Shown here: piece after piece, positions 12,588 to 33,089 of the stretch | How positions within the stretch are numbered: position 1 is the stretch's first letter | Layout: every line of letters starts with the position of its first letter | Source of the DNA: a virus | DNA: 33,711 nt | Reading direction: 5' to 3' (one strand) | IMG/VR virus record: IMGVR_UViG_3300021959_000193 | Coordinates: 1 to 33,711 of that record | Notes under the pieces: model-generated | Told to the model about the DNA's origin: nothing | The model's database searches: none | The model's input: the letters and a program-made list of their open reading frames with translations, nothing else | Position numbers and translations under genes: made by a program

Positions 12588-12605
12588 GTTTTATTTTTTT
12601 GGTGG

Positions 12606-15600
12606 TTATAGCTTTCCTAGTTTAACTCTTAAAGCATTACCGTCATAGATATAAATTGCATTCGCACTTCCTGAAGTATCTAATATAATTGCATTTTGAA
12701 CAACAGTGTGACTACTATCTGCATTGTCAAAAAGAACGCCAGATGTGCCAAGAGTAATCTTTCCTGCTTGTACAACTGTAGAGGAGAGACCTATAAAATC
12801 TAGATTTGCTTCATTTTGAGTCGCTAAATCTCCAAGACCTGTAATATAGCTACTAGTCGCGGAAATACTGTCCAGAGTGGCTAAATCTCCGAATGCAGTA
12901 GTCGCAGCTATTCCATTTGCTAAAGCCGTAAGATTACTGTAGCTATTTCCTGTGCCGCCGCTTGTAGTCGGTAGATTTCCTGATATATCATTTACTAAAT
13001 CAACAGTGTCTTGACTTGCTAAGCTTCCTAAGTCCTGAGTAAGAACTAACCCTCCTGCAGAGCTTAACTGAGCAGCAGAAATTGATGAGCCTGTTACACC
13101 AGCAACAGAAGTAACGGGAGTAAAAGCTAGCTTATTGGCGATAATTGTATTTGTTCTAATTAACCCCCCATCAATAGTGGTAGTATTACTTGTACCTGTA
13201 GTTGCTCCATTATCATTAATCCATTCTATAGGATTAAATCCATCAATATTATTTGTACTTGAAAAAGTTACTAATCCAGTAAACCCAATTCCTTGTATTG
13301 CTCCAGAGCCTGCGGAAGGACTAGAATTTTTAGTAACACTTGGATACCCATTATTATATGTACCACTCTCTGTAGCCGTAAATGTAAAATACCAGTACTT
13401 ATTCGTATTTCCGGCAACAAAAGTTGGAGTATTTGTACTCCAATTAGAATTACTACTGGATACAGATCCATTTGTAAAATTTGGAGTAAAAGTACTTAAT
13501 GCAGGAATGGTCGGTGCAGAAGTAGAGCTACTTTGATAATAAATATATGCAAAAACGGATCGAGGGCCTGGGTCTCCTGCTGTTCCATCTGCTCCATCAT
13601 CACCTACAAAAGGAACATAAGTTTGGCTAACCATTGCACTAGTAACAGAAGTTGGTTTTGTGCCTGTATACTCAAAAAATGTAATGTATTCTTGATTTGA
13701 ATAAGTTAAAGAAAGCTGTCCAGTACTGGTAGGACTAGCTACAGAAGAGTATACTGGAATAACTCCCTGCGTTTCGCCATCGTCACCTACAAAAAGAACC
13801 CAAGTTCCAGTTACACTACTTACACTTGGTTTTGTTCCTGTCCATTCGTAATATAGTACATAATTTTGATTTGCGCCTCTTGTAGTGGACTTGTTTGTTC
13901 CACTAGAGTCATCAGCATATACGACTAATACACCTTCTGAAGTTCCATCGTCTCCATCGGTTATAGTTATAGAAGTACCATCAGAAAAGTTAACAGTAGT
14001 AACTCCATTAGAGGTACTTGTACTCGTAACAGTAACAGAGGTTCCATCGTCTCCATCGTCTCCTACAAATTTTACATAAGTGAGTCCTGCAGGCACTACA
14101 GTAGGGGCGGAGCCTGTCCATTCATAAAAATTAACATATTCTTGATTTGAATACGTAAAAGTTGCATTTGTACCACTAGCATTATCTGCATAGATAGGTA
14201 TTACGCCTTGGTTATCGCCATCTTCTCCTATATATTTAACCCAAGTAAGATTAGACACAGGCAGGGTAGGTTTACTATTAGTATACTCATAGTAATTAAC
14301 ATAAGCTAAAGATCCTTGAGTATAACTTTGATTGTCTCCCGAAGAGTTACTAGCATAAATAGGTACCACACCCTTAGTATCGCCATCGTCTCCATCATTA
14401 ATTGTTATAGAAGTGCCGTCGCTAAAGTTAAGAGTTATTTCTCCTGCTACAGAAGTGTCTTCGGTAACTGTTAACGCATCTGCGTCTAAACCTTGTGGAA
14501 TAATAGGTACAGACTCAGTATCGACTAATTCAGTATAACTAGAGTCTAAATATAGCTTAGCAGTAATATTTCCAGAAGTATCACTAATTGTTCCGCTACT
14601 TACACTAGAAGCTTGGCCTTGGTTACTGTTATTTAATTTCCAATACCCAGAAGTAAATGAAGTAGAGCCGCTTGGAGTTATTTTTGACGCACTAAAAGTA
14701 ACACTGGTAGGAGACCAAGAAACAGGATCACTATTTGGATCATAGACAACGGCAGCTTGTGAAGGCGTAATGCGGTAAGAAACTCCATCCTCTCCATCCT
14801 CTCCATTTGCAACTTTTGTAACTGTAAAGTTTACACTTCTTGAAGCAGCTCCCGCATAGTTACCGTTGCTGTTCGCAGTTGCAGTTATCGAAACATTTCC
14901 GGATTGAAAAGCGGAAGAAAGATCGGTAACAGTAAAGGTATTTCCACTAGTAGTTACAGTGATACCAGTATCGGCAGTTGCGCTAAAACTCCAGTGACTA
15001 CTTATATCACTACCGCCTTGAAAAACTTTCGCAGTTGTAGTAATATTTAATTCATTTAGCTCAGTGCTCGAAGTAGCCGCTCCAACAGTTTCTGCGTCAT
15101 TTGTTAGTTCAAGAGTTATTCCATCTTCTACAAATTGAGCCACAAGAGCAGCATCTGACCATTCTGAATCCAGAATATCATCTTCATTATCTGTACTAAT
15201 TGCTGCTGCTGTTCTCTTCCAGATATAACGCTGACTTCTTGAAGGGCTGGGCTGGCTTGTTAGCCAACTATTTCTATTTGAAGTAGACAAAGAGCCATCA
15301 GCAAAAGTATAAGTTAGAGTCCCTGAAGGAACATCTGTTGTCATTGTACTGCTGCTTGTTTGCTTAAATATTTCTACAACGGCAGAATTAAAACCATTGG
15401 CGCCTGTAAAAGGTACTGCATTGGTCCATTCATTATACGAAATAAAATCAAAATCACCAGTACCATTTCCAGTTGCTGCAACTACATAAACGATTTGATT
15501 CCCAGTAGCAGCAGAGGCGGCACTTGTTAAACTGCTGTACCATACAGTACCGCTAGTACCACCATCATAGTATTCTTCTCCGTCAAATACAGGGGCGGGA

Positions 15601-18600
15601 GGGTTAGAATCATCATTTCCACTTGTACTAATTTGTCCGGTAGAAAGATCTACTTTAACTTTTGGAAAGCCAGCACTCGGACTACTTGGAACATTATTAC
15701 TATTTGTATCTGCCGGCCCTGGAGCGTACAAATACACCAAACTTGCAGAAGAGCCTACAGTTCCATTTTTTACTAAAGAAAATGTTTGAACTACAGAGAG
15801 AGTGGCCGCTTCCTCTCCATATTGAGGAATTGAAATATTATAAGTTATTGCTTCTGTTGTCTCAAATCCATTAGCTCCCAAAGCGCCTTTAAAAGTATGA
15901 TCAGCAATTGTTGCTACTATAGTTTCATCACTTAATGTTGTAGCAGTTATACCTCCTACAGTTATTCCTTGTGTTCCATTATAATCCTCTGTTGTGGAGG
16001 TTGAAGTAATTGTCCATTGTCCTTCGACAGGACCAGAAGCTACATAATTTAATGGTATTCCTGCTTGAAAAACTTTTAAAGTTCCACCAGATCGAAGGGT
16101 AGTTCCATTACTTTCTTCAATTACATTTCCGTCTGCATCACAAGCAATTACATGGCTATCATTTGTAAAACTTACACTAATACCTCCGGCGCCTCGACGA
16201 AATGCAATAATATTATCTACATCTTTTGCATCAATATCATTCTCAGGGGGTTCATTTGTATTGTCTCCAGAAGTAGGAACATTTGCAGTCCAATTTTCAG
16301 GTTTTTCTGCAACTTCTACTACTACTGTCTTGCTTCCACCATTTACACCGCCCCATGTAAAATTAGGACTAGTTCCTAACTCGGTGGGAACATCGAAATT
16401 TATAGTTGCAATATTACTTGCACCGGGGTCAAACCATTCAGCTCCAGGATAAGTAGTAGCATCTTTTATTAATGCAGTTCCTGCAACTTTAAATCTAAAG
16501 ATTGGATCGGTAAAACCATTCGAAGCAGTTGCAGTAAGAGTAATATCTCCGTCACTACTTCCAGTATAGCTTGGATTCTTACCTCTTTCATTGTAGACAA
16601 TATCATACGCTTCTAATTCAAGAAATACACTCTTAGTTCCTTCCCCTACGGCAACATCTCCGACTCGTGGAATAGTTATAGAGTCTGTTACAGACTTATT
16701 AGAATCACCTGGATCATCTTTCTCATGAACAGTAACATAAATATCTATTTGATTACCGCCAGAGTAGGGAATAGTTTCAAGCCCATCCCAAATTTCTTTT
16801 TCGTATTTATATAATCCTGAATTAGGATCTTGAAAAGCCGTATCCTCAGCAGCAAAAACATCATTACCATCTCCATCTATAGGAGCTGTAGAAGGATCTC
16901 CATAAGTTAGTTTAAATTGAGGGCTATCAAACCCCAAAGCAACTGCAGAAATATTAAGAGCTTCCGGTGCAAGAACAAGTTCTTCATCTACATTATATTG
17001 TAAAAAGGCAACATTTGTATCAATAATAACATCTCGATTCCCCCTAAGAGTCGGATCAAGAGTTAAAAAGTTTTGAAAATTAAAGGCGCCTCTTCCATTA
17101 TTTCCTACAGTAATTTGCCCTATAATTACATCATTGCGAAACTCTGGAGCGTATTTTTGAACATAAGCTGTTGTTCCCGAAGAAATTGCTGTTTCTGCTT
17201 TCCTATCGAGGTACATTACAGTGTCACTCTCAATATAAGCAACTCTAGCCGCAAAAGAACTAGAAAATCTTAATTTATTAAGATTATTTAAGTAAGAAAA
17301 ATAAGTCCCAGTACCAGTTACTTTATTACTTCCGGCTTCAATTTCTACGGTGCCAGAACTAGAACTAGAACTAGGTCTGGGTAATTCTTTCCAGTATTTT
17401 TGAAGATCCGTAGTATTGTCTTCATTCATTGCTTCATGAAGGTCGTACCAATAAAAAATATTTAAATCTTCGTCAAATCTTGCATTTATAAGTTTAAGAG
17501 CAAAAGTATCTAATCCATAATCATATTTGTCTAAAACTACATAAGCTATTCTAGTTCCATTTCCTGTCGTTGTTCCAGTCCAATTCTCGCTTCTAATTAT
17601 ATTTACATCAAAAGTATAATTAGAAGAAAAAGTAACACTATTAGCTCTTCTAAATCTACTTGGAGCTACAACAGTACTTACAGGTAGTCTGAATTTAAAA
17701 ATACCTCCTCTATGATCTAGCCAAGTTGTTAAGTCTTCTGCATCTCCGCCATCTGATTCACTCGGAAGATACTTATACTCACCTTGAGTATTGAGAACAA
17801 TATCTCCCGTTCTATAGCCTTCATCATTACTAATAGAGTCATAAGCACCTAATGCGGAATCAAAGTCTCCTCTAAATAGTCCGGAATTAGAGTTCGTTTC
17901 ATTTGTTATAAAAGGAAACTGAGAGGCAAGACCTTCAAGCTGTATGCCTTTATTTCTACTTACATTATCATCAAACGGGTCATCTACTATATATTTTGTT
18001 GAAGTCCACGCAGATTTTTTCTGAGAAACAGATATTGCTCTGACTCTAAAAGTAAAAGTACCGTTTGGTACATCCCGAATAGAAAGAGTTCTATTAGTAC
18101 TGTTTACCGTAAATATATTTTGTCTGTCGGGTAGAGTATGTAATACTTCAAAACTATCTAAAAATCTATTTGTAGGAATACCATTAGAATCAAATTCTGG
18201 ATAATCCCATGCAACTATAAGTTCCTCATTAGGCCTAGAAGCATTAGAGTTTTGTAGTATAAATACATCTGTAGGCGCTTGAATAATTTCGCTTTCAACT
18301 GGGTATACGTCTTCTGGAATATCTAAAATTGAATCAGGGTCATCTACAAAAGAATATTTACTATTATAGTGTTCTACTGCGGAAATACTATAAACATTGT
18401 TTTCTTCTTGGGCTATTCCTAAAATTTTATATAAGTCTGGAGAACCTGTAGTTTGATTACCATCATATATTTCTTCTAGCATCCATACGGAGCTAGAAGT
18501 AGGAGTTACTTCAAAAGTGTCTGATACAGTAATTCTTGCATTTCCAGAAGCAGATCCATTATCATACGAAGATACACTTTTACTTTCAACAAAAGAGTCT

Positions 18601-21539
18601 TTTTTCCAAGAAAGTTCTATCGGACGGTAAGTGCCACTATCATTATAGAAAGCATTACTTGCTCTTGCTTCTGTATTTATTTCTACAGAAGTATATGAGC
18701 TATTTTCATAAACATACAAATTTGTAGTTATTCTTTTACCTCTAGAGTATTCCGTTCCTCCAAGGGTTATTTCTCCATTTGAATCTAAATCAAGAGTGTC
18801 CTCTCCTATATAAAAAGCGGCAGGTTCTGTTATAAGAACATTAAGATTATAGCTATAGTCGGAATCAGAAGTATTTAAATTTAGTGGACGATCTACGGTT
18901 ATTACAGTTCCACTACTATCTACTTCTGCAATTCTACCACTAAGAGTGGCTCCGTATCTTGCAGAATCTTGTACTTCTATTATATCTCCAGGTTTAAGAA
19001 ATAAGCCCTCAAAAGATGTTTTAAAAGAAACAATCTCAGTTTGTTCTTGAGCAGTAAATAATTTCCATTTTCCATATCTGCGAGCCTGACCCTCAGAAGT
19101 GCACCCAAAAGCAACTGCTTCTTCTTTTATAATACGACCAGATTCTATAATATTTTGTCTATCTTCTACAATAAGAGCGGTAGGCTCATATCCTATTTCT
19201 GGATTATTCCAAGTTACTATAACTTGATTAGTTCTGGTTTTTTGTCCAGTGCTTTCATACGCAAAAGTACCCTCAATAACATTTGCCCGAGAAAAACTAT
19301 AAACTGGGTCTCCAGGAGCATCAAGTATTGTGCTCATCTTACCATCCATCCAGTACACTAAAGATGTAAAGATTGTGGCCATGTCTTTTACAACTTTATA
19401 AACATCAGTAGCTTTAGATAGGTATAAGTTTGCAGTAAATCGAGGTTCAAACCCTCCTTTACCATCTGGTACTAATTCATCACAATATTTAGACACTCTA
19501 TATAAAGAATATATATCTATATCTGATAAACTTACCCAGTCTCCTGCCCCAAATCTATTATTTGTAATAATATCTAAAAATATCCAGACAGGATTATCTG
19601 TATAGTATAGTTCTGTACTAAATGAGCCACTCCAAAAGTCTGGATAGATAGGCACAGTATAAGGTGAACTAACCCCGTTTAATGTTTTAGATTGAGTAGC
19701 AGTACTATATTCTCTGGGTAAGTATCCAGAAGGAACTTTTACTTTCATTCCACGAATTTCATAGCTTCTTTTTGGAACGCTAGTGTATTCCCTTGAATCT
19801 AAGAATAGGCCCGCGTGGGCAGTATAAGGATAGGAAAATTTATCAGTATTTATTGCAACTATATTAGAGATATTACTAGTAGAATCTCCTTGATCAGTAT
19901 CCCAAGCTTCAGCAGCATCTCCACCTCCTTGGGCAATCCCCACACCTTTATGCCGACTTAAACGAAAAATTCTTATTTTAAAATCTACAAAGGGTTTAAT
20001 TATCGACAAGTCAATATAATGCTCAAAGGAAATTGCACCATTATCATTTCCTGCGTGTTGTATAATACCTACTGAAGTTCCGTCAGCGGAAGTAAAAGCA
20101 TGTTTATAGGCTTCGAATCCTGTAGCCCCTGGAGCTTTTCTTGCTATTTGAATTAAATAATGGGCATAATTAGTAGTGTCATCACCATTATCTTTTCTTA
20201 TGGACTGCAATCGTGGATAGGCTATTGAGATTCTAACTTCATCTAAAGTTGGAACCACGGAATTAAGATCCCCAAAAATACTGGCAGAAAATTCAATAGG
20301 AGATATGGCACCTTCAGTATTAATATTTTGACTTTCTGGATAACCGTCTATTCCGAAATCTTTGAAGGCTATGTCATTTCTATCTAATATATCATCAGGA
20401 TTTTCGGTATTCCATACACTATAATTAATCTGTTTAAGCTGTGTAGTCGGAAGAGTATTAAGCTGTCCTGTGTAAGAGGTACCTCCTCCAACACCATTTA
20501 ACTCAACAATAGGATCTTGAAAAGTACTTCCACCTCTAAACTGAGCCACAAAATTATTGGAAGAAGATGGATTTTCAGCCTCAAAATCATCAGGACTAGG
20601 TGCAGTAGCTCCTGTTATTGTAAAACTAAACTCTGCAGGATCTGATGTACTCGGAGAGTAGAATCCAAGCATCCAAGGGGCCTGTTCAAGAGTAATAATA
20701 TTATTAATACTGTCTATCTGTGATATTTTTACGTTTTCTAATACTTGTACTTTGTAATTAATATTATTATTTACTAGCCATATATCTCTATCATTATAGT
20801 GTTTTATATAAGGTATAAATATTAATGAGGTTCCGGATACTTTTCCCTCCCCTACAGACATAACTTCATTTGTATTCGGATTGGCTAATACTATAAATCT
20901 ATTAGTTATATCTGTCGGGGTTTCTACTTCAAATATGTAGTTTCCTGCATCGGGAGTACCACTACTAAAAGTTACTCCAGTTACAGAACCATTGCTCACA
21001 GTCGTAGTAGCAGTTATTGAAGTAATAACTTCATAAGTAAGTGGACTAGCAGAAGTTCGTCTTTTAATAACAACTCCCGGGGCGCTTGTGTACCCCGAGC
21101 CGGAAGAAGCCACACTAGTAGTAAAAGTGCCGGAACCATTATAATAGATTCCTGTTAATGTCGCACTTTCTTTCGCCGTAACATGATAGTCACTAAAATT
21201 AGTACTACCAGTAATTGTAATAGTACCATTACTATTATATTGTGCACTGCTTTTTGTTATTCCTTCATCTCTTAATACTAAAAAATTATCATTTTTTGGA
21301 GTACCAGAAAAATTTGATGGAATATTTGGAAAAGTGACTGCTCCAGTTAAGTCGTTACTACTAGTAAATTTAATTTTACCTTCAGTAGGAGTCCATGGAG
21401 CATCTGGATCGAGATCTTTAACTCTATTTCCATTTAAGAATATGGAGGATTCTCCATATAAAAGCCCGTCTATAGGGCCTTCACAAATTGCATCATGAAT
21501 AAATATATGCTGCTGATTACTTTTTACAGGCGTGACCAT
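12606..21539 (-). CDS. Giant tail tip / host-specificity protein, lambda J-like (2977 aa)
   Basis: The N-terminus matches lambda J: HIFIHDAICEGPIDGLLYGE followed by SIFLNGNRVKD. The J core that closes the tail tube is at about 700-890, with VYKVVKDMATIFTSLVYWMD, TRTNQVIVTWNNPE, EGQARRYGKWKL and FLKPGDIIEVQDSARYG. A fibronectin III domain follows at about 1086-1185 (IVAWDYPEFDS ... GTFTFRVRAIS). The remainder is a chain of beta/Ig-like modules, a Gly-Glu-Asp linker near 2243, four about 55-residue repeats (about 2390-2650), a short collagen-like stretch, and a C-terminus ending ANAIYIYDGNALRVKLGKL. Lambda J is about 1130 residues, so this is more than twice as long. It follows gpI by 17 nt with AGGAA before the ATG. 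It probably forms the central tip fibre and contacts the host first. Confidence 0.88.
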   Translation of the reverse strand: MVTPVKSNQQHIFIHDAICEGPIDGLLYGESSIFLNGNRVKDLDPDAPWTPTEGKIKFTSSNDLTGAVTFPNIPSNFSGTPKNDNFLVLRDEGITKSSAQYNSNGTITITGSTNFSDYHVTAKESATLTGIYYNGSGTFTTSVASSGSGYTSAPGVVIKRRTSASPLTYEVITSITATTTVSNGSVTGVTFSSGTPDAGNYIFEVETPTDITNRFIVLANPNTNEVMSVGEGKVSGTSLIFIPYIKHYNDRDIWLVNNNINYKVQVLENVKISQIDSINNIITLEQAPWMLGFYSPSTSDPAEFSFTITGATAPSPDDFEAENPSSSNNFVAQFRGGSTFQDPIVELNGVGGGTSYTGQLNTLPTTQLKQINYSVWNTENPDDILDRNDIAFKDFGIDGYPESQNINTEGAISPIEFSASIFGDLNSVVPTLDEVRISIAYPRLQSIRKDNGDDTTNYAHYLIQIARKAPGATGFEAYKHAFTSADGTSVGIIQHAGNDNGAISFEHYIDLSIIKPFVDFKIRIFRLSRHKGVGIAQGGGDAAEAWDTDQGDSTSNISNIVAINTDKFSYPYTAHAGLFLDSREYTSVPKRSYEIRGMKVKVPSGYLPREYSTATQSKTLNGVSSPYTVPIYPDFWSGSFSTELYYTDNPVWIFLDIITNNRFGAGDWVSLSDIDIYSLYRVSKYCDELVPDGKGGFEPRFTANLYLSKATDVYKVVKDMATIFTSLVYWMDGKMSTILDAPGDPVYSFSRANVIEGTFAYESTGQKTRTNQVIVTWNNPEIGYEPTALIVEDRQNIIESGRIIKEEAVAFGCTSEGQARRYGKWKLFTAQEQTEIVSFKTSFEGLFLKPGDIIEVQDSARYGATLSGRIAEVDSSGTVITVDRPLNLNTSDSDYSYNLNVLITEPAAFYIGEDTLDLDSNGEITLGGTEYSRGKRITTNLYVYENSSYTSVEINTEARASNAFYNDSGTYRPIELSWKKDSFVESKSVSSYDNGSASGNARITVSDTFEVTPTSSSVWMLEEIYDGNQTTGSPDLYKILGIAQEENNVYSISAVEHYNSKYSFVDDPDSILDIPEDVYPVESEIIQAPTDVFILQNSNASRPNEELIVAWDYPEFDSNGIPTNRFLDSFEVLHTLPDRQNIFTVNSTNRTLSIRDVPNGTFTFRVRAISVSQKKSAWTSTKYIVDDPFDDNVSRNKGIQLEGLASQFPFITNETNSNSGLFRGDFDSALGAYDSISNDEGYRTGDIVLNTQGEYKYLPSESDGGDAEDLTTWLDHRGGIFKFRLPVSTVVAPSRFRRANSVTFSSNYTFDVNIIRSENWTGTTTGNGTRIAYVVLDKYDYGLDTFALKLINARFDEDLNIFYWYDLHEAMNEDNTTDLQKYWKELPRPSSSSSSGTVEIEAGSNKVTGTGTYFSYLNNLNKLRFSSSFAARVAYIESDTVMYLDRKAETAISSGTTAYVQKYAPEFRNDVIIGQITVGNNGRGAFNFQNFLTLDPTLRGNRDVIIDTNVAFLQYNVDEELVLAPEALNISAVALGFDSPQFKLTYGDPSTAPIDGDGNDVFAAEDTAFQDPNSGLYKYEKEIWDGLETIPYSGGNQIDIYVTVHEKDDPGDSNKSVTDSITIPRVGDVAVGEGTKSVFLELEAYDIVYNERGKNPSYTGSSDGDITLTATASNGFTDPIFRFKVAGTALIKDATTYPGAEWFDPGASNIATINFDVPTELGTSPNFTWGGVNGGSKTVVVEVAEKPENWTANVPTSGDNTNEPPENDIDAKDVDNIIAFRRGAGGISVSFTNDSHVIACDADGNVIEESNGTTLRSGGTLKVFQAGIPLNYVASGPVEGQWTITSTSTTEDYNGTQGITVGGITATTLSDETIVATIADHTFKGALGANGFETTEAITYNISIPQYGEEAATLSVVQTFSLVKNGTVGSSASLVYLYAPGPADTNSNNVPSSPSAGFPKVKVDLSTGQISTSGNDDSNPPAPVFDGEEYYDGGTSGTVWYSSLTSAASAATGNQIVYVVAATGNGTGDFDFISYNEWTNAVPFTGANGFNSAVVEIFKQTSSSTMTTDVPSGTLTYTFADGSLSTSNRNSWLTSQPSPSRSQRYIWKRTAAAISTDNEDDILDSEWSDAALVAQFVEDGITLELTNDAETVGAATSSTELNELNITTTAKVFQGGSDISSHWSFSATADTGITVTTSGNTFTVTDLSSAFQSGNVSITATANSNGNYAGAASRSVNFTVTKVANGEDGEDGVSYRITPSQAAVVYDPNSDPVSWSPTSVTFSASKITPSGSTSFTSGYWKLNNSNQGQASSVSSGTISDTSGNITAKLYLDSSYTELVDTESVPIIPQGLDADALTVTEDTSVAGEITLNFSDGTSITINDGDDGDTKGVVPIYASNSSGDNQSYTQGSLAYVNYYEYTNSKPTLPVSNLTWVKYIGEDGDNQGVIPIYADNASGTNATFTYSNQEYVNFYEWTGSAPTVVPAGLTYVKFVGDDGDDGTSVTVTSTSTSNGVTTVNFSDGTSITITDGDDGTSEGVLVVYADDSSGTNKSTTRGANQNYVLYYEWTGTKPSVSSVTGTWVLFVGDDGETQGVIPVYSSVASPTSTGQLSLTYSNQEYITFFEYTGTKPTSVTSAMVSQTYVPFVGDDGADGTAGDPGPRSVFAYIYYQSSSTSAPTIPALSTFTPNFTNGSVSSSNSNWSTNTPTFVAGNTNKYWYFTFTATESGTYNNGYPSVTKNSSPSAGSGAIQGIGFTGLVTFSSTNNIDGFNPIEWINDNGATTGTSNTTTIDGGLIRTNTIIANKLAFTPVTSVAGVTGSSISAAQLSSAGGLVLTQDLGSLASQDTVDLVNDISGNLPTTSGGTGNSYSNLTALANGIAATTAFGDLATLDSISATSSYITGLGDLATQNEANLDFIGLSSTVVQAGKITLGTSGVLFDNADSSHTVVQNAIILDTSGSANAIYIYDGNALRVKLGKL
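13585..14375 (-). repeat. Four-unit protein repeat in the distal J region
   Basis: Four tandem units of about 55 residues start with GVVPIYA, GVIPIYA, GVLVVYA and GVIPVYS. Each continues with a 'YxxYYEWTGTKP' core and closes with a 'WVxFVGDDGD' strand. They begin near 14374, 14205, 13945 and 13762. Between units 2 and 3 lies an 'NFSDGTSITI' insert that also occurs just before unit 1. The DNA shows recurring 'ccatcgtctcc' blocks encoding GDDGD. The units look like small beta modules stacked along a fibre. Confidence 0.78.
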
Positions 21540-21556
21540 TTATATATTCCTATTTA

Positions 21557-22294
21557 TTACCTAAGCACATACTGCGAATAATATGTTAAACTTCCTGGCG
21601 TATAAGGATAGCCCCCGTTATAGTAGTAATTACTAAAAACGTTTTCTTTATTTCGTAATTCAAATCCTATAGGCCTTCCAGGGACTCTAAGCTGTCCATA
21701 AACTACTGGTACAGGGTCGCCTTCTAAGACTGTTTGCTCAGACCCTTGAAATAAATAAGAATTTTCCGCAGCATTTTCAGGTATATCCAATGAAGGATCT
21801 GGAGCCATAATTTGTTGAAGTCCTGTTAGGGCTAAATTTACTGCTACTCCTAATGCTAAAAGTCCAAGAGTACTTCCAGCAGCATATGCTAATCCTGCGG
21901 ATAAGCCACTCATTATACCGCCGCCAAAAGCGCCCCCAGCTAAAGCTGTATTAGCCCCTAAAGCAATAGCGCCCCCAACAGCTACTAAAGCTACAATAGC
22001 TATTGCTGCCAATATTTTTCCTAAACCACTTTTTGAGCCTGCGGGCTGAGGAGATATAAAAATATCTCCTTCTCCTATTTTTAATAGCATTTCTTCTTCA
22101 TCATCTAGTCCTTTATCTCCTACTTGACAGAGAAATCCTATATTTTTTTCGTGACACTCAATAAGATATTGTCGAAGCTCGGGAAAATTACAATTTAAGC
22201 ATCTCCATACATCTGCTACAGATTCTGCATAAATTGTAAACTCAGAACCGAATTTTTTTGCTATTGCTCCTTCTAAATATACTTTACGCTCCAT
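21557..22294 (-). CDS. Tail tip assembly protein, lambda I-like
   Basis: 245 aa, close to the length of lambda gpI. The N-terminal part (MERKVYLEGAIAKKFGSEFT ... FPELRQYLIE) is a ubiquitin-like beta-grasp segment. It is followed by a hydrophobic Gly/Ala region (about 90-165) that could pass a membrane or pack in the tip. The C-terminal motif NSYLFQGSEQTVLEGDPVPV, followed by VYGQLRVPGRPIG, is characteristic of the family. It overlaps K by 11 nt and precedes J, exactly the lambda K-I-J order. In lambda it is needed to start tail tip assembly but may not stay in the virion. Confidence 0.82.
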   Translation of the reverse strand: MERKVYLEGAIAKKFGSEFTIYAESVADVWRCLNCNFPELRQYLIECHEKNIGFLCQVGDKGLDDEEEMLLKIGEGDIFISPQPAGSKSGLGKILAAIAIVALVAVGGAIALGANTALAGGAFGGGIMSGLSAGLAYAAGSTLGLLALGVAVNLALTGLQQIMAPDPSLDIPENAAENSYLFQGSEQTVLEGDPVPVVYGQLRVPGRPIGFELRNKENVFSNYYYNGGYPYTPGSLTYYSQYVLR

Positions 22295-22976
22295 ATCTAT
22301 AAACTCCGTCTAAACTTTTTACCCAGAACTCATTTAAAGGTTCTCTACAAGATAATCTATTTTCTGCATGATGAAAAAAATTATTATCTCCAATATAAAC
22401 ACCACAGTGATCTGGAACATCATGCTTTACTTTAAATATAAGAACATCATTTTTTTGTATTTGTTCTAAAGAGACTTTTATTCCTCCCCATTGTTTTATA
22501 GTTTCTTCTGAAAAATAATCTAATTCTCTATCCCACCAATTATCTTCAAAAGGTATTCTCGGAGGTATATCAATATTTTGACTCTTTAAGTAATCCCTCA
22601 TTGCTTCAAAACAGTCTTGTACTCCAAACTTATACTCTCTGCCAATTAACGGATGCGTTTTTTCTTCAGGTTCTACAATATTTAGTTCCATATCAGGGTA
22701 ACTAAAAATCCAGTATGGAATTCCCAGAGCATTACAATTATTTATATCAGAAACACTAGGCTCATTTGAAGTATCTGGGTGACTATGTACAATTGCAAAT
22801 ATATCGCATTTTTTTACAATATTAAAATAATCTTTGGAGGAGAGAATAAAATCGTCCTCGTCTTCTGCAACATTTGTACAAGGAAACCATTCTTTTTTTC
22901 CTTTTACAATTCCAATAACTCCACACGCTTCTCGTGGATATTCTTTTTCGAAATGTTTTTGTATTTCTTCAAGCAT
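22284..22976 (-). CDS. Tail tip protein, lambda K-like: JAMM peptidase domain plus NlpC/P60 domain
   Basis: 230 aa with two enzyme-like domains. Residues about 1-100 are a JAB/MPN fold with a complete JAMM metal site: Glu16 (YPREACGVI), then HSHPDTSNEPSVSD with His64, His66, Ser74 and Asp77. Residues about 115-230 are an NlpC/P60 papain-like domain with Cys122 (VQDCFEAMRDYL), His190 (DHCGVYIGDN) and His202/203. In lambda-like phages this protein may trim tip proteins and cut peptidoglycan during entry. The start overlaps the L stop as TAATG. All catalytic residues are retained, so activity is plausible for both domains. Confidence 0.9.
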   Translation of the reverse strand: MLEEIQKHFEKEYPREACGVIGIVKGKKEWFPCTNVAEDEDDFILSSKDYFNIVKKCDIFAIVHSHPDTSNEPSVSDINNCNALGIPYWIFSYPDMELNIVEPEEKTHPLIGREYKFGVQDCFEAMRDYLKSQNIDIPPRIPFEDNWWDRELDYFSEETIKQWGGIKVSLEQIQKNDVLIFKVKHDVPDHCGVYIGDNNFFHHAENRLSCREPLNEFWVKSLDGVYRYGA

Positions 22977-24109
22977 TACTTAAACTTACGGCTTCCTGGA
23001 AAGCCTCCAAAAGGAAGAGGTATCTCAGTATTTTGATGTGCTGAAAGAATAGTGTCGCCATTTGAATTTTGAGCGGTGCCTTTTGGATGAAATCTTAACT
23101 TACAAGCTTGAATTGTTTTACCGCAACTATCATTTGCCTCTGTAGTATTAGCATTATCAATATCAAACCAAGGTCCATGTCCCCAAGTGCCTGGATGGGC
23201 AAGATTATCTGCTGAAACAGACTCTTCGACACCGGCATTAGACGGGTCCCCAATTACATAGTATCTTCGACCATTATCTACTACAACATCATTACTAGAA
23301 TACGATGTGCCTTGGCTAAAATTACCTCTAGTAGTATAAATATCCGACTTCCAAGGACACCCAGACTTTACAGACCCCGCTACTGCTCCTTTATATTCCC
23401 AAGGGCAGTATTTACCAATAACATATCTGTTTGGTATTTTTAATCCTTGAACATCTAAAGGATTTGCTAATTCAAACTGAACGATTATGCTGGTTTCTGT
23501 AGCTATTCTATCAAGTATAAATCGCTGAGGAGAAAATTCTATCGAGGAGGGAATAGTATCATTTATGTCATAAATTCCGGCTCCGTCTCCAGTTTTTGTC
23601 GGGTGATCATAGGGGTACCATCTATCTACTGCAGGAGACCCTGCATCACTTGATTTTACAAATGTATTTTTTAATAAAGTTTTTCTATACTGTACTATAG
23701 AGCCAATAACATCTTCATTTTTTACTATATTCAACCCTTTTAATATTGCATCAATATTTGTTTCATTCTCGAAACCGTCACTATTCTCTGGGGTCGTTGC
23801 AGAATAGTCTGAAAGACTTCGAGCCATCGAAGCAATATTTGCAATACTAAGAGTAGGTCTAGAAATTGCTCCAGCACTATCTATTGATATTCCTTCAATA
23901 GCAATAGGACATGCTAAATATTCTGCCCAAATCCTTGTCCCATTACTTTGCTCATAAGGCATCCATATATTTAAACTATCCGGGTCTAGCCCGTCTATTA
24001 AATGTATATCTACGGATTGATTATTCCCATAACTTATTGTAATATCAAATAATTCTATAAAAGCATCGTCTAATGCTGTTTTTTGTACTGTATCTATTAA
24101 ATCGGTCAT
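22976..24109 (-). CDS. Tail tip protein, lambda L-like, with four cysteines and an inserted domain
   Basis: 377 aa, against about 230 for lambda L. The N-terminal beta domain (FDITISYGNNQSVDIHLIDG ... GISIDSAGAISRPTLSIANI) matches the L family. The C-terminal half carries four cysteines, Cys235 (GKYCPWEY), Cys251 (SGCPWKS), Cys329 and Cys336 (SCGKTIQACKLRF). In lambda gpL the equivalent cysteines were reported to bind an iron-sulphur cluster. Between the second and third cysteines is an extra segment (about 261-325, 'YSSNDVVVDNGRRYYVI ... PGTWGHGPW') that resembles carbohydrate-binding modules of the CBM5/12 type. It overlaps M (ATGA) and K (TAATG). It ends with 'LPFGGFPGSRK', typical of the family. 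Confidence 0.85.
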   Translation of the reverse strand: MTDLIDTVQKTALDDAFIELFDITISYGNNQSVDIHLIDGLDPDSLNIWMPYEQSNGTRIWAEYLACPIAIEGISIDSAGAISRPTLSIANIASMARSLSDYSATTPENSDGFENETNIDAILKGLNIVKNEDVIGSIVQYRKTLLKNTFVKSSDAGSPAVDRWYPYDHPTKTGDGAGIYDINDTIPSSIEFSPQRFILDRIATETSIIVQFELANPLDVQGLKIPNRYVIGKYCPWEYKGAVAGSVKSGCPWKSDIYTTRGNFSQGTSYSSNDVVVDNGRRYYVIGDPSNAGVEESVSADNLAHPGTWGHGPWFDIDNANTTEANDSCGKTIQACKLRFHPKGTAQNSNGDTILSAHQNTEIPLPFGGFPGSRKFK

Positions 24110-24567
24110 GCTGTAGGCTCGTATACTCGTCTAAAAGTTGTCTGAATAGAAACAGCAGAATCATTTACATAAACTAAATTATATCCGTCGCAAGTTACTT
24201 TTATAGTTTCTGTAGTTTCTGTTGGAGAAGAAGACTCTACATCTTTAGTATTAGTAACAGTCAAATTAAAATTAAGTCCTGCTTTTAAATCAAAAAAAGC
24301 TGCAATTAGATTACCCTCTTTATAATCTCTATTGTTAAAAGACACAGAAATTTGTTCCTGTTTTGTATTTATACCGTTTAAAGCTCTTTGCTCATATCCA
24401 TCACCAAATTTTGCAGTTAATAATGAGTTACTTATCTGTCTTGAAAAGCCTCTATCAACACTTACTGTAATATCTGCAGTGCCATCAGTAGCTCTCGGAG
24501 GAGTTGTAGCTCCTAATATAGAGTTTAAATCAGTATGAGTTATTTTGAATTGATACTGCTTAGACAT
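24106..24567 (-). CDS. Minor tail protein, lambda M-like
   Basis: 153 aa, beta-rich. Motifs such as DRGFSRQISNSLLTAKFGDG followed by YEQRALNGIN, and a closing 'TFRRVYEPTA', are those of the lambda M family. M caps the tape-measure/tip assembly where the tail tube begins. It is coupled to both neighbours: TAATG with the tape measure and ATGA with L. Order and length agree with lambda H-M-L. Confidence 0.85.
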   Translation of the reverse strand: MSKQYQFKITHTDLNSILGATTPPRATDGTADITVSVDRGFSRQISNSLLTAKFGDGYEQRALNGINTKQEQISVSFNNRDYKEGNLIAAFFDLKAGLNFNLTVTNTKDVESSSPTETTETIKVTCDGYNLVYVNDSAVSIQTTFRRVYEPTA

Positions 24568-27500
24568 TATGCAGCTCCATACGGATTAAGTATTCCGCCA
24601 GATCTTTTTTGGTTTTGAAGTTCTTTTTGTACCGCAAGTGCAATTGCATTTCCAAGACCCGCTCCTTGATTAGTTGAAGAAGAAGTATTTTGCTGCGCAT
24701 TTCCATTTGAGTCGACAGTTACATTTACTACAACGTTGTTAGTGCTCCCGGATCCTTTAGTCATTTGTACTGGAATTTCTTTTCCATTAGGAAGAGGTAC
24801 AACTGCTTCTGTACCGTGAAGAATTGCAGGATATCCTGCTTGTCGTCCTTTTGCAATTCCTCCTCCCGCATATGCTTGTACTTTTTCTGCAACCCCGCCG
24901 TAACGCATTGAAGGATCTTGCTCAAATATACCGCCGGTTCTTGCAGGAATTCCTAAAAAAGTTCCGAAAGAAGTACCCCCAAGAGCTGCGGTTAATAGTT
25001 TTGCAACAAGAAGTTCTGCAATAACCTTTGCAATTGCTTGCAACATACTTTTTGCCATGCTTGCAAAAGCCTCTTTTGCAGACATAGTTCCTTGAATAAG
25101 TCCCTCAAAAGCACTTTGCATACTTGAGGCCAAAGAATCTCCAACTGCATTTCCTAATTGTCCAATTTCAGTTAGATTTCTTTCTGCAATTCGTTTTGAT
25201 TCAGTTGCCAAAGCTATCGTTTGTTGTAGCTTTCTAATTTGATCTTCATATGCCTCAGGATCTGTCTCTATCAATCCGCCCTTTCCACTATTTGCCTCTT
25301 GAAATGCTGATAGTGAATTTTCTGCAAGTATTAATTCTTGCTGTGCTCTTTCCGTAGCGGTCTGTAAACTCGCTTGTCTTCCAACAGCTCCAGGAAGCTG
25401 TCTATTTGAAAGCTCTTTAACTGCTATGCTGTTGAGCGCATCTTGTGCGGCATTTTCTATTTTTTGTAACTCTTGTAATGTTTTTAGTAAAGTAGTCGCA
25501 TCTACGCCTAAAGCGTCATTTAATTCTTTTGTAGCGACTGAAAGCTCATCCACCGACATTGCCGCCCTATCTGCGGGTTTTACTAATTTATCAATCATAT
25601 CTGATAAAGATCTAGCAGCAGTATCTATGCTTCCACCTCTTAAATCTGTCATTAACTGAGGAAGGCCTTGTCTTATACCGCTTAATCCAGAAAGATATGC
25701 TCCAGAAATCACTTGACCTTTTTTCTGATACTCAGCTACTAACCGCTCGAAAAGCTCAGGATCTGCAAAAGCCTCCTCTAAGGAAACTCCATCACCTAAT
25801 TCTTTTAAAATATCTCGCTGTAGTTTTGGAAATATTGCTAAAGCTCTTCGAATATTATCTTCTGTTAGCGCAAGATCCTCTCTAAATTTTTTCAGCTCTT
25901 CATTTTCACTTATACCTGCTAAGCCTGCGTAGCCTGTTTGCCCAGGTACGCTTGTTTTAAGAGAGTTGCCTGCTTCTACTTCTTTTTGTATTCGTTCTTT
26001 TAAGTCTGTATAAGCTCGAAGCTGTTCTTGAATATCAATTCCAGATATAAAAGTTGCTTTTTGCTCAAAAGTTTCAAGAGTAGCATTTTCAAAATCGTTA
26101 GCTAAAGCTCTAACAAGATCTAGTCTTTGTTTGAATTTCTCATTAATTTCTTCTTGCAAAGCAATTTGTTCTCTTGCTTTGTTATTTTCATCTTCTCTTA
26201 CTTTAAGCTGTTCTCGACTAGTTCCAAGAGCTTCTAGTGCTTTGTCAGAGTAATTTTCAATATTATCCACTAAAAATTGTAAATCTGCTTTTGGTATTCG
26301 TATTTCTAGTCCTAATGCTTCCAATAGTTTATTTGCACCGGCTAATACAAAATTGATAATAGATTCAAAAACTTTTATTACCTTTTTAGCAACAGTTTCT
26401 ATATTTTTTAAAAAAGTATATGGAGTTTCAGAAAGTTTCAGAAATAATTCATAGGCTGCTTGAATTCCTGCAAGAATAAAAGTTCCTTTCATGGCAAGGC
26501 TCATTGCCTTATTAATAGCTCCACCGGCAATTTTAGCTCCTTTCCCTAAGTTTGCAAAAGCCAAGGAAGTAAGTGTTACACTTCCTCTAAGAAGTTTTAC
26601 GCCACCTACTCCAATTACTGCCATTCCTTTTTTAATTTTTTGTCCTGTAGTAAGACTTGTTCTTCCAAGAGTTTTTAACTCTTTTTCTACTGCTTCTATA
26701 GATTCTACTGTTGCTCCTTTGAATGCTTCGGAAGCCGTTTCTCCGGTTTCTTTAATTTCTTCTTTGACTCTTGCTAAATCTTTTCTTAACTTACCTAAGG
26801 CTTGAGGGGTTACTTCGATTCCTTCTGCAATTTTTTGTAAAGTTGTGCTTTTTGCACCCTGACCTACAAGATTTTTTGCGGCACTTCTAGCCTTACTAGC
26901 TGAATCTTTTGCGGCTTTTAGTAACTTGTCTTCCGCTTCTTTAATTTCTTCGATAACGGGATCCAAGGCTTTTCCAATAAGTTTACCTGTTAAAGACGCG
27001 GTTTTACCTACCAATCCCACACTTGAACCTGCAAATGTAAATATAGAGGCTAAAGCCCCTTTTACTCCTTGCGTTAATCCTGTAATATTTACTAATATTA
27101 ATGCTCCAAGAGCTGTAAATGCTACTGCGGCTGCATCAGCATTTTTATTTATAAAATCTGCTAAAGAGGAAAATAAAGGAAGTACTTTTTCAGTAATTTT
27201 TTGCTGTATTTCTTCTAGTGTTTTTAGTAGTGCTTGAAAAACATTGGCATCACTAGTTGATCCAACAGTTTGTCGATTCATCTGTTCGACTGCTTCATTA
27301 TAAACTGCTTGGCTTCGTTGAGCTTCTGTTAAAGTTTTTACATTTACTCCTAATGCGTCTGCATACTTTCGTGTTGCAGTTTCAAGCCGTAATGTAATTC
27401 CTAATTCATCAAGAAGTTCTGGTTCAGCTTTTGAAATACCTCTTACTAAACGATCATATGTATCTTCATAGCTTCTACCCAAACGATTAGATAGTTTTAC

Positions 27501-27980
27501 TGAGCCTTCTGCAAGTTTTTCTAGCTGTGAAGATGAAAACCCTTTTGCTGCTCCAATTGCAGCAGATTGAGCAGCTTCTTGAAATCCTAACATTCCTTGA
27601 GAAGCTTGCTGTAGTCTAGTTGTTATAGTATTAACTGCTGCACCTGTAGATTGCGAGTAGGCAACTTGAGATTTTCTTAAATTCTCTAAATCTGCCGCTC
27701 TTTTCAGAAAGTTAAATGCAGCACTTAAAGCAAAAATTTGTGCAGCAAAAGCAGCATATGCAGGCACAAGACCTCCTGAGATGCCTTGTGCCATTTTTGA
27801 AAAGTTTTTAGTAGAATTTGCAGAGGCTTGAGCAGTTCCTTTAAGCTGGCGATCAGTGCTTCTCGCAGACTTAGCAGTAGAATCTAGTGCCACGCCTAAT
27901 TTTTTAGCGTCAACAGCAACACGTTTTGTAGTACCTTTATCGTCTACAATTACGTCAATCATTACCTTATTTTTTGCCAT
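24567..27980 (-). CDS. Tape measure protein
   Basis: 1137 aa. It is largely alpha-helical and coiled coil with hydrophobic segments at about 66-96, 280-325, 470-530 and 970-995. These are the usual features of a protein that sets tail length and helps DNA cross the membrane. The C-terminus resembles lambda gpH: 'GGGIAKGRQAGYPAILHGTE', 'AVVPLPNGKEIPVQ', then 'NNVVVNVTVDSNG'. By analogy with known ratios the tail would be on the order of 170 nm (inference). It follows the chaperone GT frame with a TAATG overlap. Lys/Arg/Glu-rich helices dominate and codon use is strongly AT-biased. Confidence 0.92.
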   Translation of the reverse strand: MAKNKVMIDVIVDDKGTTKRVAVDAKKLGVALDSTAKSARSTDRQLKGTAQASANSTKNFSKMAQGISGGLVPAYAAFAAQIFALSAAFNFLKRAADLENLRKSQVAYSQSTGAAVNTITTRLQQASQGMLGFQEAAQSAAIGAAKGFSSSQLEKLAEGSVKLSNRLGRSYEDTYDRLVRGISKAEPELLDELGITLRLETATRKYADALGVNVKTLTEAQRSQAVYNEAVEQMNRQTVGSTSDANVFQALLKTLEEIQQKITEKVLPLFSSLADFINKNADAAAVAFTALGALILVNITGLTQGVKGALASIFTFAGSSVGLVGKTASLTGKLIGKALDPVIEEIKEAEDKLLKAAKDSASKARSAAKNLVGQGAKSTTLQKIAEGIEVTPQALGKLRKDLARVKEEIKETGETASEAFKGATVESIEAVEKELKTLGRTSLTTGQKIKKGMAVIGVGGVKLLRGSVTLTSLAFANLGKGAKIAGGAINKAMSLAMKGTFILAGIQAAYELFLKLSETPYTFLKNIETVAKKVIKVFESIINFVLAGANKLLEALGLEIRIPKADLQFLVDNIENYSDKALEALGTSREQLKVREDENNKAREQIALQEEINEKFKQRLDLVRALANDFENATLETFEQKATFISGIDIQEQLRAYTDLKERIQKEVEAGNSLKTSVPGQTGYAGLAGISENEELKKFREDLALTEDNIRRALAIFPKLQRDILKELGDGVSLEEAFADPELFERLVAEYQKKGQVISGAYLSGLSGIRQGLPQLMTDLRGGSIDTAARSLSDMIDKLVKPADRAAMSVDELSVATKELNDALGVDATTLLKTLQELQKIENAAQDALNSIAVKELSNRQLPGAVGRQASLQTATERAQQELILAENSLSAFQEANSGKGGLIETDPEAYEDQIRKLQQTIALATESKRIAERNLTEIGQLGNAVGDSLASSMQSAFEGLIQGTMSAKEAFASMAKSMLQAIAKVIAELLVAKLLTAALGGTSFGTFLGIPARTGGIFEQDPSMRYGGVAEKVQAYAGGGIAKGRQAGYPAILHGTEAVVPLPNGKEIPVQMTKGSGSTNNVVVNVTVDSNGNAQQNTSSSTNQGAGLGNAIALAVQKELQNQKRSGGILNPYGAA

Positions 27981-28827
27981 TAGCCACGCACATTATGGGT
28001 GTAATTTTTTCCACCTCCTGCAGACTTATTCTTTCTCTCTTCTGCTTTTCGTTTTCTATCTGCTTCTTCTGCTCTATATTTCATAACTACTCCTTCCCAT
28101 AATTTCATAATAAAAAATATATCTTTTGTATTACTTATTTTGTGTAGTTTAAAAATATATTCACAAGATGACCAGTCTTTCCCTAAGTAAGTTCCTGACA
28201 TTCCATCCCATTTATCGGATAGTAAGCTGAATACAAAAAATGCCACTTGAACTTCCTCTGGAAACTCAGAAGAATCGAGCGGCATTCTAGATGGGTCTGG
28301 ATCTTGTCCTAACTGTTCACAAATTTTTAGATACTTTTCAACATCTACATTAGAAGATGCCTCTTTTACATATCTTTCAAGTAGATGAAGAAGCTCTTCT
28401 ACTTGTTGCTGGTAAAATTTTCGAGGTCACCTACTGTTTCTGTTACCCAAGTATCAAAATTGTTTGCATTCTTCATTAGAAGTTCTGCATTATCTTTTGT
28501 ATAAGGCAGTTCATCATCGGGGTCAAGATTAGAAACATCTACCAAAAGAAGCTCTTCTAGGTATCGAAATTTTAATCCCTTCCAGCCTTTAATTACTGCT
28601 GCACAATACTCTACTAAAAATTTATCATCATCTATCTCTTCTTCAGGCTGTCTTGTTTTTCTATTAAATTTAGTGCTTAAACAACGCTTGCGAAGATTCA
28701 AAAGCTCTTCTCGAGCTAAATGGCATAAATTGACTGTAAATCCTTCGTATCCAGGAAAATCAATTGCTACTGTTTTACTTGGAGTCATAAGACTCGCGAG
28801 AGAGATAGGCTCTTTTTTGTCTGTCAT
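27980..28827 (-). CDS. Tail assembly chaperone GT, made by -1 frameshift (about 282 aa)
   Basis: The G frame (28827 down) and a second frame ending at 27980 are offset by -1. That second frame is open without a stop from 28414 onward. Slippage at A AAT TTT (28420-28414) gives 138 residues of G followed by 144 residues starting YQQQVEELLHLLERYVKEAS. The second part contains 'EVQVAFFVFSLLSDKWDGMS' and a basic tail ('AEEADRKRKAEERK'). An internal ATG at 28285 exists but would drop the first 43 residues of the T region. Lambda and many siphoviruses make a GT fusion in this way: G and GT wrap the tape measure before tube assembly and are absent from the virion. Proportions match lambda closely. 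The stop overlaps the tape-measure start as TAATG. Confidence 0.87.
28399..28827 (-). CDS. Tail assembly chaperone G (unshifted product)
   Basis: 142 aa, MTDKKEPISLASLMTPSKTV onward, ending ...VTETVGDLENFTSNK. It sits between the major tail protein and the tape measure, the invariant place of the G chaperone, and its length is nearly that of lambda gpG. It is acidic in the second half (EEEIDDDKF, DVSNLDPDDELPY) with hydrophobic helices (YLEELLLVDV). AAGGA lies 6 nt before the ATG. It is the first gene after a terminator and a consensus promoter, so it should be made in quantity. The unshifted protein is expected to be the major form and GT the minor one. Confidence 0.87.
   Translation of the reverse strand: MTDKKEPISLASLMTPSKTVAIDFPGYEGFTVNLCHLAREELLNLRKRCLSTKFNRKTRQPEEEIDDDKFLVEYCAAVIKGWKGLKFRYLEELLLVDVSNLDPDDELPYTKDNAELLMKNANNFDTWVTETVGDLENFTSNK
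28414..28420 (-). promoter_or_regulatory. Programmed -1 ribosomal frameshift site (A AAT TTT)
   Basis: On the minus strand the zero frame reads ...GAA AAT TTT ACC. The heptamer A AAT TTT fits the X XXY YYZ rule in exactly the reading phase needed for simultaneous slippage (AAT to AAA, TTT to TTT). It lies four codons before the G stop, and the -1 frame continues open for 144 codons. I do not see an obvious strong pseudoknot downstream by eye. Confidence 0.85.
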
Positions 28828-28865
28828 AGTTAGTCCTTAAAGGGTTTTATTGATTTATACCACAT

Positions 28866-28894
28866 ATTATATCGAAGGGAAGGAAAAATGTCAA
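28866..28894 (-). promoter_or_regulatory. Consensus sigma70 promoter for the tail operon
   Basis: On the minus strand, TTGACA (28894-28889), exactly 17 bases, then TATAAT (28871-28866): a perfect match in both hexamers and in spacing. An A/T-rich stretch upstream (about 28895-28908) could act as an UP element. It lies in the 133-bp gap between the major tail protein and the chaperone G gene, just downstream of a terminator. It would start the transcript for G/GT, the tape measure and the tip genes. Confidence 0.92.
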
Positions 28895-28918
28895 GAATTA
28901 TTTTTAACACCTGGAAAG

Positions 28919-28941
28919 AAAAAACCCGCCGAAGCGGGTTT
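28919..28941 (-). terminator. Rho-independent terminator after the major tail protein gene
   Basis: On the minus strand AAACCCGC (28941-28934), tetraloop TTCG, GCGGGTTT (28929-28922) continues into a run of T ending at 28919. The stem is 8 bp and perfect, closed by the extra-stable UUCG loop and followed by a U tract. It lies 20 nt after the major tail protein stop. Confidence 0.94.
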
Positions 28942-28960
28942 AGTAAAAAGTATTATTATA

Positions 28961-30538
28961 TTAAGGATAAGTCTCTTGATTTGCAGAAGCTGTATCACCA
29001 AAATAAGTAAGTACAAGCTCGTCGGCTTTATCAAAGTCGTTTGTATAAGCTCCGAATCCAGTTTCAACAGAAATAACATCTTCAACTGAGTGAACTGGTA
29101 CATCGATATGTACTCTCGGCATATTAATATACAACCGAGGAACATTTGCAGTAGCTCCTCCAATCTGGAAAGTAACTTGGAAATCGTTTACAACTTTATC
29201 TAAGCCTGCTCCAGATTCTGTCATGTCATTAAATAAATCTACTGAAGAGCCTTTATCTGCACCAGCAGTATCAAGAGTTAAGTAGCAAGTAAAGTTGCCT
29301 GTTACTGTTCGACCCCCGGTTACACCTTCAATTGGAATGTTAACATTGCCAAGCTCCTCTGGAACAAGATAAGTAATGTTATTTGAAACTGTAACATTAC
29401 CTCCGGTAAGAGTCAGATAATAATCTCCAGAGCCAAATGCACCAGTATCAGTAGTACTTACAATACACTGAGTGAGTCGATTTCGAATAAAGTTAGCAGT
29501 TGAATCTACGCCTGCGTCAATAGCAGTTACTCCAGTACCGGTACCCGTTGAAGTAAACAGAGAAAACTGCATATCACTATCTGTTTTTAAGTGAATTTGT
29601 CCTGCTGTTCCTGCTTGCGAAGCAAAAGCTGTAGTATTTGAAATTACATCACCAGCAGACTGTCTATCTACAATATTTTTTGCAAAACCAGACCAATTAA
29701 TTGTTGCGATGCCGTCTACATCGAAATCAATGGAAGCTTCATTAATTGCAGCGTTTTCAAGCTTATATACCATAGGCTTAGACGTACTTGTTTCCATCAC
29801 AAAATATAAGTTAAAATTAGCAAGTACTGAGCGATTCGACTGGCCAAAGTTAATAGTATTATTTGTATCAGTAGGCATTGAAACAAATTCGCCAAAATCT
29901 GAATTTGCGTCTACATTTGCATTTCTATAAAAAGCATAGCTACTTCCTGCGTCAACTGTACCAATCGTTACCGTTGCGTCTCCAGTTCCGTCTCCTATTA
30001 GAGATCCTGGAACTACAAAAGTTTCTGAAGCAGTATAATCAGTACCTCCACTAACTACTTGTACAGCAGTAACTCCGCCCCCAGTACCCACAGTTAACTG
30101 AAAAGTTGCCCCTGTTCCTGCGGAGCCGCTATAAGTAGTATCATCGGCGTCTACAATATAAGTGCCCGCAGTGCGATCCGTAGCAGAATCAGATACAGTT
30201 GCCGTATCAATAGACCCTGCAGAAGATACAGTTCCAAACTTATCAGCACCCGCCATAGCAGCCCATAATACTTCTTCTACTGCATGGTGTTCCGAACCTG
30301 AATAAAAAGGACGCACATAAGTACTAAAAGACCACTCTGCCGGAGCAAGAGAGTCAGTAAAAAGTCGTCGACCTCGACGGCTAATTCCATCTGATCCTTG
30401 CATTTCTGCAAGAGTAATATCAGAGGTGTTAGTAGACTGTGAGAAACTAAATCCGTCAAGTACAGGAATTTCCCATACTTGATTATCGAATTCTACATAG
30501 AGTTTCGAGTCTCTACTAAAGTATAATTGTTGAGCCAT
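28961..30538 (-). CDS. Major tail tube protein with an inserted domain
   Basis: 525 aa, larger than the usual 150-350. The N-terminal motif (MAQQLYFSRDSKLYVEFDNQ, then VWEIPVLDGFSFSQSTNTSD and AEMQGSDGISRRGRRLF) is that of siphovirus tube proteins, and the residues after about 200 continue the same fold. Residues about 111-198 look inserted: a Gly/Thr-rich beta module (TGATFQLTVGTGGGVTAVQV, SGGTDYTASETFVVPGS) that would decorate the tube surface. AGGAGA precedes the ATG. A strong terminator follows, as expected for a gene needed in hundreds of copies. The gene lies directly before the G/GT chaperones, as in lambda V-G-T. Confidence 0.85.
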   Translation of the reverse strand: MAQQLYFSRDSKLYVEFDNQVWEIPVLDGFSFSQSTNTSDITLAEMQGSDGISRRGRRLFTDSLAPAEWSFSTYVRPFYSGSEHHAVEEVLWAAMAGADKFGTVSSAGSIDTATVSDSATDRTAGTYIVDADDTTYSGSAGTGATFQLTVGTGGGVTAVQVVSGGTDYTASETFVVPGSLIGDGTGDATVTIGTVDAGSSYAFYRNANVDANSDFGEFVSMPTDTNNTINFGQSNRSVLANFNLYFVMETSTSKPMVYKLENAAINEASIDFDVDGIATINWSGFAKNIVDRQSAGDVISNTTAFASQAGTAGQIHLKTDSDMQFSLFTSTGTGTGVTAIDAGVDSTANFIRNRLTQCIVSTTDTGAFGSGDYYLTLTGGNVTVSNNITYLVPEELGNVNIPIEGVTGGRTVTGNFTCYLTLDTAGADKGSSVDLFNDMTESGAGLDKVVNDFQVTFQIGGATANVPRLYINMPRVHIDVPVHSVEDVISVETGFGAYTNDFDKADELVLTYFGDTASANQETYP

Positions 30539-30599
30539 AGTCTATCTCCTATGAACTTTGAAAAGGCTTGGACGTGAACGTTTGTTCGTGCCAGCGGTT

Positions 30600-33042: not shown

Positions 33043-33068
33043 AAAAACTTGGGGAGGAAACCCTCCCC
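33043..33068 (-). terminator. Rho-independent terminator after the major capsid gene
   Basis: On the minus strand GGGGAGG (33068-33062), loop GTTT, CCTCCCC (33057-33051), then AAG and five T (33047-33043). The 7-bp GC-rich stem with a U tract sits about 22 nt after the capsid stop and about 13 nt before the connector gene. Confidence 0.9.
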
Positions 33069-33089
33069 AGTTTATAAAAAGCGTTTCTA

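Follow-up and report, generated by a model that had tools for sequence, protein, structure and literature searches.

Bacteriophage T5 is the precedent against which the locus described here is best read. In T5 the host sigma70 polymerase transcribes all gene classes, strong sigma70 promoters stand ahead of early and late genes alike, and RNAs from PJ5 and PG25, two late promoters, are not seen before 30 min after infection; the mechanism of the early-late switch is stated as unknown, and the discriminator as the main difference between early and late promoters (PMC7472727). Both late promoters, PG25 (AY543070, 92013-92087) and PJ5 (99910-99984), lie in the tail region. Terminators followed at once by a promoter are annotated in T5 as well, for example at P10a (27162-27251) and in several further pairs of the same record, but these belong to the early region.

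We analysed a stretch of viral DNA of 33,711 nucleotides (IMG/VR record IMGVR_UViG_3300021959_000193, positions 1 to 33,711; hereafter the window), in which a terminator and a promoter stand between the gene of the major tail protein and the genes of tail assembly.

The cassette between the tube and chaperone genes

The elements of the cassette and their order can be read directly on the minus strand: tube gene, hairpin, A-block, promoter, leader with AAGGA, chaperone gene. The gene of the major tail (tube) protein (28961..30538, 525 aa; phrog_3575, E 3e-41) is followed by an intrinsic terminator (28922..28941), which reads from 28941 to 28922 as AAACCCGC-TTCG-GCGGGTTT, an 8-bp stem closed by a UUCG loop, and continues into the T-rich tail TTTCTTT; the hairpin folds with -12.7 kcal/mol (z = -4.3 against shuffles). 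The UP-like block AAAAATAATTC (28895..28905) abuts the -35 hexamer TTGACA (28889..28894), and a spacer of 17 nt leads to the -10 hexamer TATAAT (28866..28871), so that the A5T block and the hexamers span 28905-28866 with a 12/12 match to the consensus. The first-pass annotation had reported precisely this, a perfect TTGACA-17-TATAAT behind an 8-bp UUCG terminator, and its coordinates were right. Judging by its position, the A-tract may act as an UP element, i.e. a binding site of the polymerase alpha subunit, and the position of the -10 hexamer would place the transcription start near 28860-28858. The short leader of the chaperone gene carries the Shine-Dalgarno sequence AAGGA (28834..28838) and is unstructured, its fold being no more stable than those of shuffles (z +0.75); a structured or frameshifted leader controlling the chaperone was rejected on this ground. 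A Rfam search of the window matched no family, and a DNA-level search of the cassette region against phage records gave no match.

The unit that would be restarted here begins with the tail assembly chaperone gene (28399..28827; phrog_313, E 5e-13), also on the minus strand, as are all of its genes. A second chaperone frame (27980..28285; phrog_3914) is probably expressed via a -1 frameshift, and the -1 frame stays open between the end of the first chaperone gene and this second frame. The heptamer A AAT TTT at 28414-28420 (minus strand), in the chaperone frame and 7 codons 5' of the stop, would fit a programmed -1 frameshift of this kind. The tape measure gene (24567..27980; phrog_3779, E 2e-39) comes next, and the rest of the unit consists of the tail-tip genes (12606..24567; phrog_14, 18, 30, 32 and 31) through the J-like gene (12606-21539), which encodes a J-type protein of 2977 aa of a lambda-like tail tip.

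Directly behind the J-like gene stands another member of this promoter class, AAAAAT-AAAAC-TTGACA-17-TATAAT (12559..12598, minus strand; hexamers at 12587-12559), which is conserved behind J in relatives. The window thus holds two perfect sites with a 17-nt spacer, where base composition predicts 0.02; its 300 order-2 Markov copies contained 3 such sites in all. When the A-block is included and up to 3 mismatches are allowed, three sites are observed, two of them exact, against 0.28 expected per shuffled window. As far as sequence can tell, the cassette at the tube junction is a real regulatory element.

Conservation at the tube junction

A search with the tube protein yielded 73 related viral contigs from IMG/VR, 67 of which had enough downstream sequence to be analysed. 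Here, too, conservation is a matter of direct observation: a hairpin is present in the gap between the tube gene and the next gene in 67/67 junctions and a promoter in 51/67. The hairpin precedes the promoter in 44 of the 67 junctions and follows it in at least 7 (5 by the automatic rule, L060 and L061 by eye). The remaining arrangement, a hairpin without promoter, occurs in 16/67 junctions, so that the window's phage family can do without the cassette.

The block AAAAAT-ANTTC-TTGAC is kept where the tube proteins are only ~45% identical. AAAAAT is invariant in 22/22 nonredundant junction promoters and was not a selection criterion; TTGAC and TATA are invariant in the same 22 sites, both being in, or nearly in, the selection criteria, and the spacer between -35 and -10 drifts. 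The first-pass annotation had called the site a sigma70-type promoter of the strongest class with an A/T-rich upstream element, a view that gains support from this family-wide conservation, which goes beyond a match to the consensus. In a tree of 37 tube proteins, whose deep branches are uncertain, the window belongs to a large clade in which the hairpin precedes the promoter. In L036, L037, L052 and L060 the gene after the junction, as seen by eye, resembles a second tube-like protein (start MYNFKKNAKL.. or similar) and not a chaperone.

The reversed order deserves attention of its own. At the tube junctions of several lineages (L037, L052, L060, L061, L066/L067, L072, L122 3669, L133 2881, L185 345 and L187 284) a strong hairpin with a U-run lies right after the promoter's start site and not ahead of the promoter. 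Among 218 nonredundant promoter sites, terminator-like hairpins lie upstream of 24 and at the transcript start of 14, and none were found in two control stretches; the reversed order is thus not due to chance. In these lineages the simple model of stop and restart does not hold, and one has to assume a leader hairpin that is leaky, stabilising or gated.

A different kind of pairing was noticed at one early promoter, L337 941-1010 (plus strand), the spacer of which, ACTCCTGC, is complementary to the Shine-Dalgarno region GCAGGAGT just before TTTTTTATG. The same complementarity recurs in L349, L351, L354, L366, L367, L372, L375, L378, L379, L382, L397, L101 5979 and L108, with compensatory changes such as ACTCCCGT/ACGGGAGT and AATCCC/GGGATT. 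Readthrough RNA would be predicted to fold, around this early promoter, into a hairpin with a U-run, ending the RNA or masking the ribosome site, and an RNA started at the promoter itself could presumably not form it. Complementarity between spacer and leader is absent at the tube junction.

Distribution of the promoter class

Repeated use of this promoter class along the genomes is equally evident. A matrix built from the tube-junction sites and run on the window and eight relatives found 1-4 sites per contig, all intergenic or at a gene edge and co-directional with the genes; three Markov copies made of the full contig set gave a single match. The pattern AAAAT-N5-TTGAC-N18-TATAMT occurs in 4-11 copies in each of ten larger contigs, and the reversed control pattern in none of them. 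In a close relative, contig G011, whose SbcC-like protein is 99% identical to that of the window, the late copies stand behind the terminase region (assigned from the equivalent site in contig G001), the tube gene and the J-like gene; four early copies are on the other strand, and two of these precede the ligase genes. A search of IMG/VR with the motif returned 104 loci, and since 90 of them encode a relative of one of the window family's proteins, the motif comes close to being a hallmark of this phage family, even if Clostridia genomes contain similar blocks. The trinucleotide ACC (or GGT) is weakly enriched 16-19 bases before the -35, most strongly in late copies: ACC is found there in 7/7 sites behind J, 6/9 head sites and 8/16 sites at tube junctions.

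Affiliation of the phage

The tail tube, tail terminator and tape measure proteins belong to T5-type families (phrog_3575, 3907 and 3779). In tblastn the tube and tape measure proteins match about 900 mainly Demerecviridae records at ~30% identity across part of their length, and the best matches of the tube protein are Demerecviridae major tail proteins, again at ~30% identity. The plus strand of the window (82-5475) carries replication and nucleotide genes (SbcC-like, RusA-like, exonuclease, ribonucleotide reductase); upstream of the corresponding genes, in sequence that lies outside the window, G011 encodes a split NAD-dependent DNA ligase in two adjacent genes (phrog_3359 and phrog_3498; PF01653/PF03120). 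In place of the T5 tail tip (pb3/pb4/pb5) the window encodes a lambda-J-type tip and L/K-type proteins. Because of this tail tip we regard the phage as a T5-like relative and do not place it as a member of Demerecviridae. Demerecviridae have genomes of ~110-120 kb with long terminal repeats and a two-step DNA entry; all records used here are fragments of 20-95 kb, the window's record being a virus fragment of 33.7 kb.

The large subunit of ribonucleotide reductase (2518-4299, plus strand) is 64-66% identical to proteins of Pelagibacter podoviruses despite the T5-like tail. The enzyme might point to a Pelagibacter host, but the promoter motif is absent from two Pelagibacter phages. Bins that contain contigs of the family range over Gamma- and Betaproteobacteria, Bacteroidetes and an archaeon. 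In view of the missing motif and the mixed binning, no host is claimed. CTTGAC as a mark of an alphaproteobacterial host was dropped as well; most genome matches came from Clostridia.

Probable stop and restart at the tube junction

We consider it likely that the locus is a T5-type cassette of terminator and promoter, which stops transcription after the tube gene and lets host polymerase restart it for the tail-assembly unit. Most polymerases that pass the tube gene would stop at the UUCG hairpin, and the host's RNA polymerase, presumably carrying sigma70 as its main sigma factor, would restart ~60-80 bases further on at the consensus promoter, presumably strengthened by contact of the alpha subunit with the A-tract. 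The restarted unit would run from the chaperones over the tape measure and tail tip to the J-like protein, and its purpose may be to set the levels of tube and tail-assembly proteins separately. There would then be about three late promoters, behind the terminase, tube and J-like genes, and the tube-junction promoter would be the one in the middle of this list. The proposal of the first-pass annotation that the chaperone/tape-measure operon starts from a host-type promoter of its own and is thereby uncoupled from the tube gene is well supported by the conservation and by the T5 precedent.

Another terminator stands behind the gene of the major head protein (33050..33069, minus strand, -16.7 kcal/mol), and no promoter follows it. 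T5 likewise has a terminator behind its head protein gene. Terminators of this kind thus probably leak, and transcription of the connector and tube genes seems to depend on readthrough past 33050-33069.

When would the promoter fire? Of 110 nonredundant early sites, 98% have A immediately downstream of the -10, as against 32% of 57 late sites, 61% of which have T there; the three bases ATA stand behind the -10 in 69/110 early and 7/57 late sites. Sites at the same position are related by descent, so a p-value overstates this difference, but the trend holds across positions. The post-J promoter of the window has the discriminator TTCATC, with T first. The tube-junction promoter has ATGTGG, and because this discriminator starts with A, sequence alone assigns no timing to the promoter. 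As the first-pass annotation suggested, it could be active early or throughout infection, unmodified host polymerase making tail-assembly RNA as the DNA enters; the A-first discriminator agrees with such a use, and A5T-ANTTC-TTGACA-17-TATAAT also precedes early genes of close relatives, so that the core does not distinguish the classes. We hold early activity to be unlikely, given that PJ5 and PG25, strong sigma70 promoters too, are silent until the late stage of T5 infection and that the other late copies in the family, mostly with T after the -10, hint at a class distinction. For the tube-junction promoter late timing is favoured by the analogy with T5.

It is quite unlikely, in our judgement, that one host-type consensus with the invariant A5T serves early and late genes with the timing set outside the core, be it by the base after the -10 or by a gated leader terminator like lambda PR'/tR'; the gated terminator would concern only those lineages with a hairpin just downstream of the tube-junction promoter.

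The invariance of the A5T block, equal to that of the hexamers, together with the weak ACC enrichment 16-19 bases before the -35, may suggest that a phage activator or specificity factor reads an extended motif, of which the sigma70 look would be a partial signal. The A-tract just 5' of the -35 is, however, where an UP element is expected, PG25 of T5 has a similar tract, and a near-identical block also occurs in Clostridia genomes, which makes it a general feature of strong promoters. Moreover, a search of six relatives, all fragments, for a T7-like RNA polymerase or sigma-factor domain (PF00940, PF04542, PF04545) found none, although the RNA polymerase search works on Pelagibacter phages, which served as positive control. 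We therefore regard a dedicated phage factor as very unlikely. Finally, a chance consensus match without function has a practically negligible probability: the sequence is AT-rich and 9/12 matches are common in the window (14000-33711 being no richer in them than shuffles), but a 12/12 match with an A-block is conserved at the same junction beside tube proteins of ~45% identity.

Stop and restart by host polymerase, as we read the locus, implies that the T5 style of late region, with strong host-type promoters insulated by terminators, extends to many widely divergent uncultured marine phages. The promoter matrix offers a cheap annotation of transcription units in the window's family, which provides hundreds of aligned early and late promoters for finding how late sigma70 promoters stay silent; one difference, A against T after the -10, is already visible.

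Comparison with known systems

The T5 regulator gp026 (gpT5.026) gave no tblastn match in four relatives, where a homologue may be too divergent. The promoters themselves can be compared more closely. Run over the T5 late region, the family matrix has PJ5 as its sole match above 9 bits, and it gives one match each in Providencia phage PR1 and Vibrio phage PG07, behind the tape-measure gene. PR1 (KY363465) has an annotated promoter behind the terminase gene, as in the window's family, and another, ATTATTCTTGACATTT...TATAAT, behind a terminator after the tape measure; unlike the window, it has no annotated promoter between the tube and chaperone genes.

The promoter of the window resembles PG25 in standing directly behind a hairpin terminator in the tail region, with an A-rich block and a CTTGA.. 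-35, TATAAT and the orientation of the tail genes; PG25 differs in following the tape-measure gene instead of the tube gene and in its -35, TTGATA. PJ5 shares the sigma70 type, but it is located inside the gene that precedes the tube gene, has no terminator directly before it and carries TATACT as its -10. The first-pass annotation had taken a host-type promoter at this place for a departure from the usual practice of phage late regions, which was mistaken here, as PJ5 and PG25 are themselves sigma70 late promoters in a tail region; the surprise is mostly removed, for T5-type phages run their late region likewise. The window's promoter shows the sequence features of a late promoter of the T5 type: a tail-region position, co-directionality with the genes, both hexamers complete with a spacer of 17, an A/T upstream element and, as in PG25, a terminator directly upstream. 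The cassette appears to be a conserved T5-like arrangement, located at a junction where T5 has none.
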